DNA from: Exiguobacterium acetylicum DSM 20416
GTDB lineage: Bacteria > Bacillota > Bacilli > Exiguobacteriales > Exiguobacteriaceae
Assembly: GCF_000702605.1 (NCBI RefSeq)
Contig: NZ_JNIR01000001.1
Location: forward strand, 1,540,501 to 1,604,500
Reading direction: 5' to 3'
Length of the DNA: 64,000 nucleotides
Positions within the stretch are counted from its first letter, which is position 1. The number at the start of each line of letters is the position of its first letter. Position numbers and translations under genes: made by a program. This document shows, piece after piece, positions 35,641 to 43,375 of this stretch. Under the pieces are notes generated by a model. It did not search any database and was not told the origin of the DNA. It saw only the letters and a list, made by a program, of their open reading frames with translations.

Positions 35641-37575
35641 TCATTGTGCGTCTTTTGCTTGATTGTACGTGATGGTTTTTGAACGATACACCGTATCGTC
35701 TTTATAGATCGTAATTTTTCCTTCTTCTCCTGGATCAATCGTCACCGGCACGTCGAATGTCTCATCTTGATCAATCGATTCCTCGATGACGGTCCGCTTC
35801 CCTTTCGCGTCTTCCGTCTCAATCCGTATGACTTGTTTCGGTGGTTCCTCGTCCTCGTTCTCGCTGACCGCATCATAGACGACCTTTTCAGGGAACGTTG
35901 CCGTCACCGTTTTTTCTTCCTCACCTTTTGAGATGAAGACGGTCACAGAGTCGTTTGGTTCGACTTGTGCCCCTGCTTGTGGGAATTGACGGATGACTTG
36001 ATCGAGCTTGACATCACTCGAGAATTCTTGTTCAAACGTACCGTCGAGACCCATTTCATCGAGATACGCTTTCGCTTCATCACTCGATAAGTTCGTCAAG
36101 TCTTTCAATTCAAAGGATGACGTTCCTTCCGAGACAGTGATCGTAATCGTCTGTTCTTTTGCAATCACTTCCGTTCCAGCAGAGATCGATTGCCGGATAA
36201 CATTACCTCGCGCAATTTCATCCGACTTTTCACGTTCGACCTCGACTTTTGCGAATCCAGCCTCTTTTAATGTTGCAATCGCCTCTTTTTCAGCGTCATC
36301 TGTCACATCTGGTACTTCGACCGGAGCACTACCTGTAGAGACGACCAAGTTGACCGTCGAACCCTTTTTGACTTGTGCATTTTCACGCGGTGTCTGACTA
36401 ATGACATCGCCTTCATCGACTGTATCGCTATTTCGTTCTGTCGTCTCGACGACGAATCCAAGTTTCTCAAGCTTCGTTTCCGCATCGTCTCCATCTGTCT
36501 TGACGACAGATGGTACGGTGACCGTTGGATCCGGCCACATCGCAAACGTCGTAGCCGCTCCACCGAGTAAAACGAGCAATAAGAGAACGATCCACCAGCG
36601 TTTTTTCTTTTTCTTTTCCGGTGTTTTCGGTTGAACAGTCGTGACGGCGGGTGATTCTGGTTCCGCTTTTGATTCTTCTGGCACTTGGACGGGTGACAAG
36701 ACCATCGTCTTTTCCATCTCATCCTCTTCTGCACCTCGAATGCCTTCACTTGCCCGTTCGTCAGACAACGCCGTCACCATATCTGCCTTAAAGGCTGCGA
36801 CGGACTGTTGGCGGTCATGCGGTGCTTTCGCGAGCGCCTGCATGATACAGTTCTCAAGCGCTTGTGGCACTTTCGGATTCAAGACGGATGGGCGACGCGG
36901 TGTATCTTGCAGATGCTTCAGCGCAATCGCGACCGGTGAATCCCCTTCGAACGGCACTTGTCCTGTAACAAGTTCGTATAAGACAGCACCAAGTGAATAG
37001 ATATCCGACTTCTCATCCGCAAATTTACCTTTTGCTTGTTCCGGTGAAAAGTAATGCACGGACCCAAGAACGGACATCGTATGCGTCAGCGTCGCATTCG
37101 ACATCGCCACAGCAATTCCGAAATCCGTTACTTTGACGGTACCATCTTCTCGAATCAACATGTTTTGCGGTTTAATATCGCGATGGATAATCCGGTGTGC
37201 ATGGGCGTGATCGATTGCATCACAAATTTGAGCGATGATATCAACTGCCTGCGGCACAGGTAATGCTTGATTTTCACAAAATGTTTTTAATGTCATACCA
37301 TCGATATACTCCATGACGATGTAATAGATGGCATCTTCTTCGCCTACATCATAGACGGCAACGATGTTTGGATGATTCAAGCTGGTAGCAGCATGTGCTT
37401 CACGTTCGAATCGACGAATGAATTGTTCGTCATGCGAAAATTCAGTTCGTAAAATCTTAATGGCAACATGACGCTTTAAAATCTCATCATAGGCTTGATA
37501 GACATTCGCCATCCCGCCACTTCCAACTAGCCGTTCTATGCGGTAGCGGTCATTTAATCGATCTCCGTATCGCAT
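35641..37575 (-). CDS. prkC: Serine/threonine protein kinase PrkC with PASTA repeats
   Basis: Transmembrane kinase that responds to muropeptides/lipid II. 644 residues: kinase domain 1-270 with VGSGGMANVY, HRDIKPQNM and DFGIAVA; a Pro/Glu-rich juxtamembrane part; one membrane segment at ~325-347 after a KKKKKRWW stop. Three extracellular PASTA repeats begin near VTVPSVV, VEVPDVT and FELKDLT, and a C-terminal beta-rich Ig-like tail follows. ATG at 37575, 2 bases after prpC. Together with PrpC it forms a kinase/phosphatase switch. Confidence 0.97.
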   Translation of the reverse strand: MRYGDRLNDRYRIERLVGSGGMANVYQAYDEILKRHVAIKILRTEFSHDEQFIRRFEREAHAATSLNHPNIVAVYDVGEEDAIYYIVMEYIDGMTLKTFCENQALPVPQAVDIIAQICDAIDHAHAHRIIHRDIKPQNMLIREDGTVKVTDFGIAVAMSNATLTHTMSVLGSVHYFSPEQAKGKFADEKSDIYSLGAVLYELVTGQVPFEGDSPVAIALKHLQDTPRRPSVLNPKVPQALENCIMQALAKAPHDRQQSVAAFKADMVTALSDERASEGIRGAEEDEMEKTMVLSPVQVPEESKAEPESPAVTTVQPKTPEKKKKKRWWIVLLLLVLLGGAATTFAMWPDPTVTVPSVVKTDGDDAETKLEKLGFVVETTERNSDTVDEGDVISQTPRENAQVKKGSTVNLVVSTGSAPVEVPDVTDDAEKEAIATLKEAGFAKVEVEREKSDEIARGNVIRQSISAGTEVIAKEQTITITVSEGTSSFELKDLTNLSSDEAKAYLDEMGLDGTFEQEFSSDVKLDQVIRQFPQAGAQVEPNDSVTVFISKGEEEKTVTATFPEKVVYDAVSENEDEEPPKQVIRIETEDAKGKRTVIEESIDQDETFDVPVTIDPGEEGKITIYKDDTVYRSKTITYNQAKDAQ

Positions 37576-37577
37576 AT

Positions 37578-38312
37578 TCAGACCCTCTTTCTTTCTTTGA
37601 ACCGGATGGCGGCAATCGTAATATTATCCGCGCCTCCTCGAGCGTTCGCTTCTTTCACCAATCGTCCGACAATCTCATCAAGCGGCTCATCCTGTAAGAT
37701 GATCTGTTCGATGACATCATCTGGTACTTCATCGGTCAATCCGTCACTACAAACGAGGACGAGGTCATAGTCTGGAGCATCTCTGACTTGAATGTCGACT
37801 TCGACCGTTTCGTTCGAGCCGACCGACCGTGTGATGACATTCTTACGTGGATGATTTTCGACTTCCTCATCCGAAAGCTCCCCCATTTGTCGTAACATGT
37901 TGACGTAAGAATGATCGTCCGTCAATTGTTTTAACGCCGTACCTTCAAGGGCATAGACTCTACTATCTCCAACATGACCGATGACGAGCAAATCCTCGAC
38001 CCAGCAGACACAGGCAATGGTCGTTCCGACGATCGCAAGTTGCTCTTCTTTTGAAAACTGAAGAATCCGGGCATTCGCCTCGGCTACACGTTGTTCTATC
38101 CATTCAGACAATTCCATCGGACGATTTGGCATGAGTGAAAAGGATGCTTCAAATACCTCGCGAACGATCGCACTTGCGATATCGCCAGCAGCATGACCTC
38201 CCATACCATCCGCAACGACGGCAAGACCACGTTCGGCGTTCCCGACGAGTAATACCGTATCCTCATTTTTAGTCCTGACTTTCCCAGTAGTCGAAAGGTG
38301 AGCTAACTCCAT
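37578..38312 (-). CDS. prpC: PP2C-family protein phosphatase PrpC
   Basis: Mn-dependent Ser/Thr phosphatase that reverses PrkC phosphorylation, e.g. on translation factors and cell-wall proteins. 244 residues with metal-binding VADGMGGHAAGD, GHVGDSRVY, CSDGLTDEV and GGADNIT. It has GGAGG before its ATG, 18 bases after rsmB. Confidence 0.97.
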   Translation of the reverse strand: MELAHLSTTGKVRTKNEDTVLLVGNAERGLAVVADGMGGHAAGDIASAIVREVFEASFSLMPNRPMELSEWIEQRVAEANARILQFSKEEQLAIVGTTIACVCWVEDLLVIGHVGDSRVYALEGTALKQLTDDHSYVNMLRQMGELSDEEVENHPRKNVITRSVGSNETVEVDIQVRDAPDYDLVLVCSDGLTDEVPDDVIEQIILQDEPLDEIVGRLVKEANARGGADNITIAAIRFKERKRV

Positions 38313-38330: not shown

Positions 38331-39662
38331 TCAATCTTCTCGTTTTTTAAACGCGGCAATATAGAAGCCGTCCGTTCCAACTGTCGTCGGTAACAACTTG
38401 AGTTCTGCTCGATCCCCGATCAGATGTCGCACGGATTCTGGCATGCGTGCCGCGAAGGATGTGTCAAAATCGAACCCTTGATCGAGAATGAACGCTGTCT
38501 GCTCCTCGTTTTCTGTCGGATCAATCGTACAAGTCGAATAGACGAAGGTTCCACCCTTTTTAACGAGTGGTAAGACAGCTGTCAGAATATCTCGTTGGAT
38601 TTTCGGCAGTTGCTCGAGCTGTTCCGGACGTTTCGTCCATTTGATATCTGGTTTTCTCCGAATGACACCGAGTCCTGAACAAGGTGCGTCAACAAGAATT
38701 CGATCAAAAGATTCTACTTCAAAGCGTTCCCCTGCTTTACGTGCATCTAACGCTTCTGCTTGAACAGTCGTAAGACCTAATCGTGTCGCTTGCTGTTCAA
38801 TCAGTTTAATCTTATGTGGATGAAGATCAAGTGCCTGTAGTGTACCCGTCGTCAAACCTTCAGCAATGTGCATCGCTTTCCCACCAGGTGCAGCACAGCT
38901 GTCGAGTACATGATCAGATGCTTCTGCACCAAGTGCACGAGCGACAAGCATCGAGCTCTCATCCTGCAAAGATAGGTATCCGCGATTGATCAAATCGGTT
39001 TTTTGAACGCTTCCTCGTTCGATTTCGAGACCGTCTGGCGCTACCGTAGATGGTTTTGCCGTCACACCTTGGTCGAGTAGAAGCTCGATCGCTTCCTCTC
39101 GCGTCGTCTTCGTCCGATTGATACGAACCGTGACCGGTGCAGGCGTGTTATTCAATTGACAGATCTGAAGCGTTTCTTCCGGACCAAACAGTTCAAGCCA
39201 GCGTTCGACGAGCCACTGCGGGTGACTCGTTTCGATACTGATCCGTTTTGCAACAGGCTCAATCTCAGCGAAATGAGGCATTCCCGCCCGTAATACATTC
39301 CGGAGCACTCCGTTGACGACTTTCGAGACATGGACTTTTCCACGTTTTTTAGCAATCTCAACAGCTTCATGGATGACGGCATGATCCGGTACACGATCAA
39401 GATAAAACAACTGATACACACTCATCCGTAACAACGGACGCATGAACGGATCAAGTTTTTTCTGTTTTGCTAAATATGGCTCCAAAATGTAATCAAGCGT
39501 CAACTCACGACTAAGTGTCCCGTAGACGAGTTCCGTGAACAAACCGACATCTGACGCTGAGATAGCACGCTTTTCAAGCATCTGGTGAACGGTGATTGTC
39601 GAGAAGGCACCACCTTGACCGATTTTCATCAGTGTCGTTACTGCTGCGTCGCGTACATTCAT
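38331..39662 (-). CDS. rsmB: 16S rRNA (cytosine-967-C5)-methyltransferase RsmB
   Basis: SAM-dependent m5C methyltransferase. The N-terminal NusB-like domain (~1-140) is followed by the Rossmann domain with SCAAPGGKAMHIAE, DAPCSGLGVIRRKPDI and TCTIDPTENEEQ; the cysteines of the last two are the catalytic pair. 443 residues. It overlaps the def-fmt stop by ATGA. Confidence 0.96.
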   Translation of the reverse strand: MNVRDAAVTTLMKIGQGGAFSTITVHQMLEKRAISASDVGLFTELVYGTLSRELTLDYILEPYLAKQKKLDPFMRPLLRMSVYQLFYLDRVPDHAVIHEAVEIAKKRGKVHVSKVVNGVLRNVLRAGMPHFAEIEPVAKRISIETSHPQWLVERWLELFGPEETLQICQLNNTPAPVTVRINRTKTTREEAIELLLDQGVTAKPSTVAPDGLEIERGSVQKTDLINRGYLSLQDESSMLVARALGAEASDHVLDSCAAPGGKAMHIAEGLTTGTLQALDLHPHKIKLIEQQATRLGLTTVQAEALDARKAGERFEVESFDRILVDAPCSGLGVIRRKPDIKWTKRPEQLEQLPKIQRDILTAVLPLVKKGGTFVYSTCTIDPTENEEQTAFILDQGFDFDTSFAARMPESVRHLIGDRAELKLLPTTVGTDGFYIAAFKKRED

Positions 39663-41041
39663 GCGTTCTCACCTACTTGTTGTCCGAGTTCAAGCGATTG
39701 ACCGATCCCGCGCATGAACGTGGCACCATCCATTCGTTTTTTACCGGACGGTTGTAAGTCGATCAGCTTCAACGCTGTTTCAGAACCCGTTGCGATGACG
39801 GGACCATCTGCTTCTAAAGCGATGATTTCACCCGGTCGTCCCGTTCCTTTGACTTTCGTTGCGAAAAAGACTTTTAAACGATCATTTCCAAGCATCGTAT
39901 ACGTACTCGGGAAAGGATTCATTCCTCGGATTTGATCATAGAGTGTCTCACCCGGTAACGTAAAATCAAGCCGTTCCCGTTCCCGTGAGATATTCGGCGC
40001 AAACGTCGCTTCTGCCTCGACTTGCGCTTCCGGTGTCAATTCACCTGCTAACAGACGCGGCAACGTTTCAAGCAACAGCCGCGCTCCTGCGTCCGCTAAT
40101 TTTTCGAACATCGTTCCGACTGTATCGTTCTCTTCGATCGGAACGATGATTTTTGACAACATATCACCGGCGTCAAGTCGATCGACCATATACATGATCG
40201 TCACGCCCGTCTCTTTTTCGCCATCAATGATTGCTTGATGAATCGGGGCACCGCCACGATATTTCGGTAAGAGTGACGCATGGACATTGATTGCCCCAAA
40301 ACGTGGTGCTTCCAAAATAGCTGTCGGTACAATCTGACCGTAAGCTGCCGTGATAATAAGATCTGGTTTTAAATCAAGGACGTCCTGATAGTCTTCACGA
40401 ATCCGTTTCGGTTGCAACACGGGAATATCGTGTTCCATCGCGACGAGTTTCACTGGTGTCGGTTTGACTTCTCGTTTTCGTCCGACCGGCTTATCTGGTT
40501 GTGAGACGACACCGACGACGTCATACCCGGCATCGATGACTTCACGTAGCGTTCCTGCCGCAAATTCAGGCGTCCCCATGAAGACGACGCGCGGCTTTTC
40601 TTGCTCGACGAGTTTATCCGTGAACAGGACACCGTCTAAATGATCCATCTCGTGCTGGATCGCACGTGCAAAAAAGCCGTTTGCTTTGATTTTGACCGTC
40701 CGTCCAAGACGATCTTGCGACTTGACGACGATGCGGTCGAACCGTTCGACCGGTCCGAAAACACCTGGCATGCTGAGACATCCTTCGTCATCAATCTGTG
40801 AACCATCGGCTTCGATGATTTCCGGATTGATCAGCTCAATCGGTCCTGTCTCATCATCCGTATGGACGACCGCTACACGGATCGGTTGATTGATTTGCGG
40901 TGCCGCTAAGCCGACACCATCATATTCATACATCGTATCGAACATCCGGTCGATCATCTTACCAAGTTTTTTATCGAACTTCGTGACAGGTTCACACACC
41001 TGTCGTAATACGTCATTAGGTACTTCTACTACTTTATACAT
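39659..41041 (-). CDS. def-fmt: Peptide deformylase / methionyl-tRNA formyltransferase fusion
   Basis: One 460-residue frame joins two normally separate enzymes. Residues 1-146 form a peptide deformylase with GVGLAAPQ (42-49), EGCLS (metal Cys88) and HEMDH (130-134). From residue ~149 follows formyltransferase: RVVFMGTPEF, NVHASLLPKYRGGAP (Asn252, His254), DRLDAGD (Asp290) and a C-terminal OB-like domain. There is no linker: DKLVEQE runs straight into KPRVVFMG. Both active sites look intact. The genes are neighbours in Bacillus, so loss of the junction stop explains the fusion. A 2-base sequencing error at the junction is the main alternative. Flanked by priA and rsmB as expected. Confidence 0.9.
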   Translation of the reverse strand: MYKVVEVPNDVLRQVCEPVTKFDKKLGKMIDRMFDTMYEYDGVGLAAPQINQPIRVAVVHTDDETGPIELINPEIIEADGSQIDDEGCLSMPGVFGPVERFDRIVVKSQDRLGRTVKIKANGFFARAIQHEMDHLDGVLFTDKLVEQEKPRVVFMGTPEFAAGTLREVIDAGYDVVGVVSQPDKPVGRKREVKPTPVKLVAMEHDIPVLQPKRIREDYQDVLDLKPDLIITAAYGQIVPTAILEAPRFGAINVHASLLPKYRGGAPIHQAIIDGEKETGVTIMYMVDRLDAGDMLSKIIVPIEENDTVGTMFEKLADAGARLLLETLPRLLAGELTPEAQVEAEATFAPNISRERERLDFTLPGETLYDQIRGMNPFPSTYTMLGNDRLKVFFATKVKGTGRPGEIIALEADGPVIATGSETALKLIDLQPSGKKRMDGATFMRGIGQSLELGQQVGENA

Positions 41042-41050
41042 ACAGACACC

Positions 41051-43375
41051 TCACATGAATACAAATGGATTCAAGTCGATCGCGACTTGTGTTTTTGACT
41101 TTTGACGACGGGCTAAGATATCACGGAGATGTGTCCGGACATCTTCCTGCCCTTTATGTTTAATTAAGACCTGTTGTCGGTACATATTCTTCAGTCGAGC
41201 AAGTGGCGCATCGAACGGTCCATTGACGACTAAGTCCTCTGACTCGAAAGCCCGCAGCTCGGAAGCAATCTGTTGCGCTTCTGCTTGTGCTTCGAGTGGA
41301 TGTGTCGCTGAGACCGTGATTAAACCAAGGAACCAGAATGGAGGGTGTCCCCCGAGTTTGCGCAACTGCATCTCGCGCTTATAGAACGTTTCGAAATCAT
41401 GCTGTTTTGCCGTCTGAATGACGTAGTGCTCCGGATTATAGGTCTGGATGATCGACTGTCCGGCGAGTTGCCCCCGCCCGGCACGACCCGACACTTGCGT
41501 GATCAACTGGAACGTTCGCTCACTTGCCCGAAAATCCGGAATACCGAGCGTCGCATCGGCAGCGAGCACCCCTACGAGCGTGACATTTGGAAAGTCGAGA
41601 CCTTTGGCGATCATCTGTGTCCCGAGAAGAATGTTCCCTTCCTTACGCTCGAAGGCATCGAGTAACTTCTCATGTGCACCTTTACGAGACGTCGTATCCT
41701 GATCCATCCGGATAATGCGCGCTTCCGGAATCAAATGCGCCAACTCTTCCTCGATCTTTTGCGTCCCCGTTCCGAACTGACGAATCTTCGTAGATTCACA
41801 GGACGGACAAGTTTTCGGCATCGCTGCCTCGAATCCACAATAGTGGCACTTCAAGCGATCTTCGTGCTGATGATACGTTAAATTAACGGCACAATGTGGA
41901 CATTGCAACGTCTCACCGCAATCCCGACATAAGACGAATGTCGTGTACCCACGACGGTTCAAAAGCAAGACCGTCTGTTCGCCGCGCTCGATTCGTTCTT
42001 TGATGCCTTCGATGAGTGCAAGACTGAACGGAGTACGATTGCCTCTTTCAAGCTCTTTACGCATATCAACGATGTCGACAGGCGGTAATTCCCCACCAAA
42101 TCGTTCACGAAGCGGTAAGTAATGATAAACCCCTTTTTGTGCCCGCGCATACGTTTCGAGTAACGGTGTTGCACTTCCGAGCACGACGGGACAACGATGA
42201 TAAGCCGCCCGCCACTTCGCGACATCGCGCGTATGATAACGCGGATTCTCTTCTTGTTTATAGGTTGTTTCATGTTCTTCATCGAGAATAATGATTCCGA
42301 TATTCGTCAGCGGCGCAAACACGGCGGACCGTGCACCGACAACGACATCAACCTCGCCTTGGGCGATTTTGCGCCACTCATCATACTTTTCTCCAAGCGA
42401 TAGACCGCTATGCAAGACAGCGACCCGTTCTCCGAAACGACGTTTGAAGCGTTTGACCATCATCGGCGTCAGACTGATTTCAGGAACGAGCAAGATCGCT
42501 TGTCTACCGCGTTCGAGTTGTGCATGAATCGATTCAAGATAGACTTCCGTCTTACCACTTCCTGTTACGCCATGTAACAAGAACGTTCCGGTCTCCGCTT
42601 CAGCCGTGATCGCCGAGACGGCTTCCTGTTGCTTTTCCGTCAAAGAAGACGGCACAAAGATATCTTGGACGAGATGCTCGTAAGGATTTCGCCGCACATC
42701 GATCGTCTCGACTTGAACGATGCCCTTTTTATCGAGGGCGTTCAACGTCGCGCTCGTTGCGCCCGTCGCCTGCTTGATTTCACTCCACAACGCATTCGGA
42801 AATTCTTGGATATACGCATAAAGTGCCGCTTGTTGGCTCGCTTGTTTTGTAAAGGTTGCTTGCTCCTCGAGGAGACGAATCCGTTTATCGGTTTTAGACG
42901 TCTTTTTCTCGCGAATGACCGGTTGAAGCGTCACATCAGCTTGTTTCGCCGCTGTTAAAATGACTTGTTGGACTTCCGTTGGTAATTGACTCATTTTCTT
43001 ACCATGATATGCCCGAAGTGGGCCCGACTCGACTATGACCAGTTTATCATAACTCACCTTTAAGGCAGCCGGCAGCATCGCAAGCAACGCCGTCGCCTGA
43101 AAACACAAGGTCGTTTCTGATAAATACGCCGACAACTCGAGTAATTCTTCCGTATAGGTCGGGGTCTCATCGAGAACACGAACGATTGATTTGACGTTCG
43201 TCAGATCAGACGTAGCTTTTGTTCCAACGACGATTCCAAGCAACGCCCGTGGACCGAATGGTACCTCGACGCGCATCCCGGGAACGATCAACTCTTGCCA
43301 GAGTTTCGGCACGGCGTAATCAAACGGACGATCAACGGTGGCCGCTGCGACATCGACGATGACTTCGGCTATCAT
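41051..43375 (-). CDS. priA: Primosomal protein N' PriA
   Basis: 3'-5' DNA helicase that restarts stalled forks by loading the primosome. 774 residues: N-terminal 3'-DNA-binding domain (VIVDVAAATVDRPFDY), winged helix, helicase core with LLHGVTGSGKTEVYL, ILDEEHETTYKQ and SATPLLETY. The zinc cluster is CRDCGETLQCPHC ... CHYCG ... CPSC. VSGRAGRGQLAGQSIIQT follows. It starts on the coaBC stop (ATGA). Confidence 0.97.
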   Translation of the reverse strand: MIAEVIVDVAAATVDRPFDYAVPKLWQELIVPGMRVEVPFGPRALLGIVVGTKATSDLTNVKSIVRVLDETPTYTEELLELSAYLSETTLCFQATALLAMLPAALKVSYDKLVIVESGPLRAYHGKKMSQLPTEVQQVILTAAKQADVTLQPVIREKKTSKTDKRIRLLEEQATFTKQASQQAALYAYIQEFPNALWSEIKQATGATSATLNALDKKGIVQVETIDVRRNPYEHLVQDIFVPSSLTEKQQEAVSAITAEAETGTFLLHGVTGSGKTEVYLESIHAQLERGRQAILLVPEISLTPMMVKRFKRRFGERVAVLHSGLSLGEKYDEWRKIAQGEVDVVVGARSAVFAPLTNIGIIILDEEHETTYKQEENPRYHTRDVAKWRAAYHRCPVVLGSATPLLETYARAQKGVYHYLPLRERFGGELPPVDIVDMRKELERGNRTPFSLALIEGIKERIERGEQTVLLLNRRGYTTFVLCRDCGETLQCPHCAVNLTYHQHEDRLKCHYCGFEAAMPKTCPSCESTKIRQFGTGTQKIEEELAHLIPEARIIRMDQDTTSRKGAHEKLLDAFERKEGNILLGTQMIAKGLDFPNVTLVGVLAADATLGIPDFRASERTFQLITQVSGRAGRGQLAGQSIIQTYNPEHYVIQTAKQHDFETFYKREMQLRKLGGHPPFWFLGLITVSATHPLEAQAEAQQIASELRAFESEDLVVNGPFDAPLARLKNMYRQQVLIKHKGQEDVRTHLRDILARRQKSKTQVAIDLNPFVFM

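Follow-up and report, generated by a model that had tools for sequence, protein, structure and literature searches.

In the window, a stretch of 64,000 nucleotides from Exiguobacterium acetylicum DSM 20416, the gene at positions 39659–41041 on the minus strand joins peptide deformylase (Def) and Met-tRNA formyltransferase (Fmt) in one reading frame. It is very probable that its product is a genuine bifunctional Def-Fmt protein and that the gene goes back to a single ancient fusion in the ancestor of Exiguobacteriaceae, from which it was inherited vertically. The existence and function of the Exiguobacterium fusion are already known from a survey of 5,042 reference genomes (PMC12690207; Mol Biol Evol, Nov 2025, msaf311). 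That study described the def-fmt fusion in the four reference genomes of Exiguobacterium, accompanied by another PDF with a full set of catalytic residues. An E. coli delta def-fmt mutant grew normally again when given the E. alkaliphilum fusion in codon-optimised form. Our literature text searches found no report of the fusion earlier than this one. Both activities are indicated by the complementation, the setting of which was E. coli carrying the gene of another species, ~68% identical to the window's protein. Frame, conservation, selection, the status of the fused Fmt as the only one and the presence of a second Def were determined in the present analysis. Its additions are the fixation of the fusion in 38 of 38 genomes from two GTDB genera, the sole-Fmt status, a variable junction with a missing Def tail, the finding that no internal start is conserved, and a structure model with two domains.

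According to the ORF listing the frame runs from ATG to TGA over 460 codons. The Def domain comprises residues 1–149 (40595–41041, minus strand; Pep_deformylase, PF01327, E 1.6e-50), whereas the Fmt domain, residues 151–460 (39662–40591, minus strand), has no start Met of its own. Pfam assigns Formyl_trans_N to residues 151–326 (3.2e-41) and Formyl_trans_C to residues 350–445 (7.2e-21). PF00551 and PF02911 are thus both found in the Fmt half. The NCBIfam equivalog fmt (TIGR00460) spans residues 151–448 and scores 314.8 bits against a cut-off of 201.5; for pept_deformyl the fusion protein reaches 166.3 against 103.95. All three peptide deformylase motifs (I, GxGxAAxQ; II, EGCxS; III, QHExDHLxG) are present in the fused Def as GVGLAAPQ (42–49), EGCLS (86–90, motif II region 86–93) and QHEMDH (129–134, motif region 129–137). 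Hallmarks of Fmt are NxH...SLLPxxRGxxP, a catalytic Asp and a basic tRNA-binding loop. Fmt motifs were located at residues 181–198, 251–271 and 279–294, and INVHASLLPKYRGGAP, GVTIMYMVDRLDAGDM and QPDKPVGRKREVKPTPVK are retained with small substitutions in all 38 genomes.

A previous sequence-only reading of this DNA had described a single 460-codon frame with intact Def and Fmt motifs. ORF, Pfam and NCBIfam results agree with this description, and a motif check returned the same coordinates and motif positions. That reading also let the two enzymes join without a linker at about residue 147. The single frame holds, but the halves are separated by a variable linker of about six residues, VEQEKP (residues 145–150; 40592–40609, minus strand). 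The ribosome-binding-like sequence GAGGTG lies at 41047–41052 (minus strand) before the single start, where the upstream region reads ATGTGAGGTGTCTGT-ATG, and ATGTGAGGTG precedes the start of the fusion in 38/38 genomes.

A single stop-free match from residue 1 to residues 457–460 was obtained in every one of the 38 genomes of the order, with protein identities of 66–99%. The window's protein shares 99% identity with those of E. indicum HHS 31 and Exiguobacterium sp. Leaf196, and 68% with the fusion of E. alkaliphilum (locus L059). The same fusion was found in 25 Exiguobacterium loci in a scan of GTDB contigs, a set which largely overlaps the 38 genomes; the species include E. indicum, undae, sibiricum, antarcticum, flavidum, alkaliphilum, profundum, aurantiacum and others. 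None of the 38 genomes has lost the catalytic or the tRNA-loop motifs. Within genera, NG86 dN/dS amounts to 0.01–0.07 for Def and 0.015–0.09 for Fmt-N, with synonymous sites near saturation in this comparison. Judged from these substitution patterns, both halves are under strong purifying selection. By the same measure the six-codon linker is far less constrained, which is an estimate from few sites.

In each of the 38 genomes exactly one Fmt scores above the cut-off, and it is the one within the fusion. A second, separate Def is likewise present in all 38. The sequence-only reading had asked about further copies in the genome; that of E. acetylicum (3.28 Mb, 3 contigs) has one separate Def and no other Fmt. 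This Def comprises 182 aa by its listed start, contains GIGLAAPQ, EGCLS and QHEYDHLDG, and is encoded next to a gene read as pyruvate dehydrogenase E1 alpha. A fixed 1:1 ratio, as suggested in the sequence-only reading, would apply to the fused Def alone, since every genome also encodes a free one. The other PF00551 match in the genome, at 64415, is well under the Fmt cut-off and of PurN-like length; further Fmt-type matches in the family are PurN-like or other, and below threshold. An additional Fmt-like protein of ~290 aa occurs in two of the 38 genomes (G031:C1:1203711-1204532 and G027:C1:630560-631381). With 131 and 121 bits these proteins score under the Fmt cut-off, and they are possibly sugar or other N-formyltransferases. 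The second def match in G031 (C1:2262607-2263104) has one internal TAA, which the other 37 genomes lack; possible causes are a broken Def in this genome or a matched stretch that extends beyond a natural stop.

Across Exiguobacteriaceae the junction follows the pattern FTDKL-x(4–11)-R(V/I)VFMGTP, with x standing for VEQEKP in the group to which the window belongs; others have VEQEATP, VETEASP, VEKP, AETTAEAPKDV or AVPEKGTDQ. The Def tail, ~12–24 residues in neighbouring Bacilli, is absent from the fusion. It had been proposed that the junction GAAAAG is the remnant of an ATGA overlap (GAATGAAG) from which TG was lost. The comparison of relatives does not support this origin, since the junction varies between species in sequence and length and the Def tail is missing. 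GAAAAG is restricted to the closest relatives; it is one derived state among many, and a loss of TG from ATGA can therefore not be inferred from it. For the same reasons, a varying linker and a missing tail, this species does not show what the ancestral junction was.

A different account of the same junction is that two separate genes merely appear merged through a sequencing or assembly error with two missing bases. An ATGA overlap of def and fmt is frequent in other Bacilli, and a loss of two bases could indeed merge such genes. However, 38 genomes share the open frame with linkers that differ in both length and sequence, and the synthesised fusion of a relative works (PMC12690207). A base-call error is thus excluded. 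Family-wide conservation and the published complementation together bear out the sequence-only reading in its central point, a genuine def-fmt fusion with both activities. It is also very unlikely that, besides the fused protein, free Fmt is produced through an internal start or by cleavage of the linker. GTG or TTG codons do occur near the junction in some species, and confidence in the structure model is lowest at the linker; yet the stretch from Def motif III to M155 contains no in-frame start that is conserved among the 38 genomes. In the window, M155 is the only ATG/GTG/TTG codon near the junction. It lies inside RVVFMG, and initiation there would cost the Fmt fold its first strand. Within the window, the earlier statement that Fmt has no start of its own which keeps this strand intact was therefore correct. 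At invariant four-fold sites the third-position variability is 1.42 bits at the junction (8 sites) and 1.33 bits as the gene average (110 sites). Since synonymous variability is undiminished at the junction, no conserved internal initiation signal or hidden ribosome site is seen. Hence, a hidden internal Fmt start was rejected as a candidate.

We consider it rather unlikely that the fusion serves a new coupled function, such as tethering of Fmt to ribosomes, sensing of formylation flux, or a tail-less Def working off the ribosome while bulk deformylation is left to the second Def. Compatible with such a function are the loss of the tail found in the Def of neighbours and the retention of the fusion in two genera in which a second Def always occurs. 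The tails of Bacillus-type Def are short, however, and we found no evidence of their binding to the ribosome; moreover, the linker evolves fast in length and sequence and bears no sign of a conserved interface, and E. coli grows normally with the fusion in place of its own two separate genes (PMC12690207). A specialised form of this idea, in which the tail-less Def acts mainly off the ribosome in an Fmt-centred enzyme and the separate Def performs the bulk of co-translational deformylation, is unlikely as well. If it applied, formylation and deformylation would be co-regulated within one protein. We think instead that the fusion mainly replaced the translational coupling of operon neighbours, and we infer that no new chemistry or function was gained.

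The preferred reading, an ordinary bifunctional enzyme, is in line with the predicted structure. An AlphaFold2 model computed with 43 sequences has a mean pLDDT of 93.3 and a pTM of 0.67, and its weakest block is the junction (residues 141–150, mean 73). The model reads as two well-formed domains, the mutual placement of which is left unset by the pTM of 0.67, so that a specific interplay between them would be compatible with it. The fused Def superimposes on B. cereus Def (PDB 1ws0) with 55% identity, an rmsd of 0.7 and a TMt of 0.94, and the fused Fmt on B. anthracis Fmt (PDB 4iqf) with 56% identity and an rmsd of 1.0. Unlike the fused halves, 1ws0 and 4iqf were solved as separate proteins, and among the 50 best matches to solved structures there is none that covers both halves. 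In the preferred reading, one polypeptide folds as two ordinary domains with a short, weakly constrained linker. Its C-terminal domain would formylate the initiator Met-tRNA as the sole Met-tRNA formyltransferase of the cell, and its N-terminal domain would be a competent deformylase that strips the formyl group from nascent chains, a task probably shared with the second Def.

The fusion gene is flanked by priA upstream (41051–43375, minus strand; ORF) and by rsmB downstream (38331–39662, minus strand; ORF), the ATG of which overlaps the TGA of the fusion. Beyond rsmB, at 35641–38312, the ORF sequences indicate a PP2C-type phosphatase and a PASTA-type serine/threonine kinase, which we take to be the usual prpC-prkC pair. 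priA and rsmB flank the fusion in 25/25 Exiguobacterium loci. They also flank separate def and fmt genes in most loci, including nearly all of the Bacillus type. From this we infer, as the simplest account, that two neighbours in an operon fused a single time in the ancestor of Exiguobacteriaceae and that the fusion then descended vertically: the adjacent, co-directional def and fmt of a priA-def-fmt-rsmB operon would have been joined once, anciently.

Outside the genus, the collection scan returned 55 loci, and the fusion was found in none of them (0/55); in some of these loci no def was detected next to fmt, and sampling for fusions outside Bacilli was light. The junctions were scanned with BLAST, as a scan by motifs alone overlooked loci in which the motifs vary. 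Among the matches listed for a sample of 399 Bacilli genomes, those from other families that extend over both genes are all interrupted by one or more stop codons. Five joined matches (L082, L087, L115, L122 and L125), from Lachnospiraceae, Myxococcota, Eisenbacteria and Neomarinimicrobiota, enclose separate frames and hence are not fusions; nor is Babela massiliensis a case of fusion, both genes being reported absent in the paper on this organism. In six loci from Bacilli or Firmicutes (L077, L079, L103, L108, L119 and L124), the search did not detect a def immediately next to fmt, and the def-fmt neighbourhood is hence not universal.

Compared with the separate genes of other Bacilli, the fusion has the same genes in the same order and on the same strand, within the priA-def-fmt-rsmB operon, and Def and Fmt of the nearest separate loci are ~50–63% identical to the fused halves. 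The separate loci differ in having a stop that divides the two frames, a Def tail of 12–24 residues and a start codon belonging to Fmt itself. In Bacillus and Planococcus, def and fmt typically overlap by four bases (ATGA or TTGA). In Fictibacillus, Def ends with FTSKVSSYYEPGEFER-stop and is followed after 9 bases, in the same frame, by Fmt beginning with MKIVFMGTPD. Ribosome-bound PDF of the E. coli type has a C-terminal helix that binds L22; the fused Def ends at the linker without a tail of its own. The family offers a clean natural case in which opposite reactions of the fMet cycle are fixed in one chain throughout. Since the sole Fmt of the cell is tied to one of its Def enzymes, the family also provides a natural test of the need for free Def at the ribosome exit. 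As its existence and function are already published, the remaining value of the fusion is that of an experimental system rather than a discovery. The closest known system is the Exiguobacterium fusion of PMC12690207, the hallmarks of which, an uninterrupted def-fmt frame and a second Def with all catalytic residues, are found here as well. Fused gene, genus and companion Def are shared with that system; only the species differs, and the four reference genomes described there compare with 38 of 38 family genomes here.
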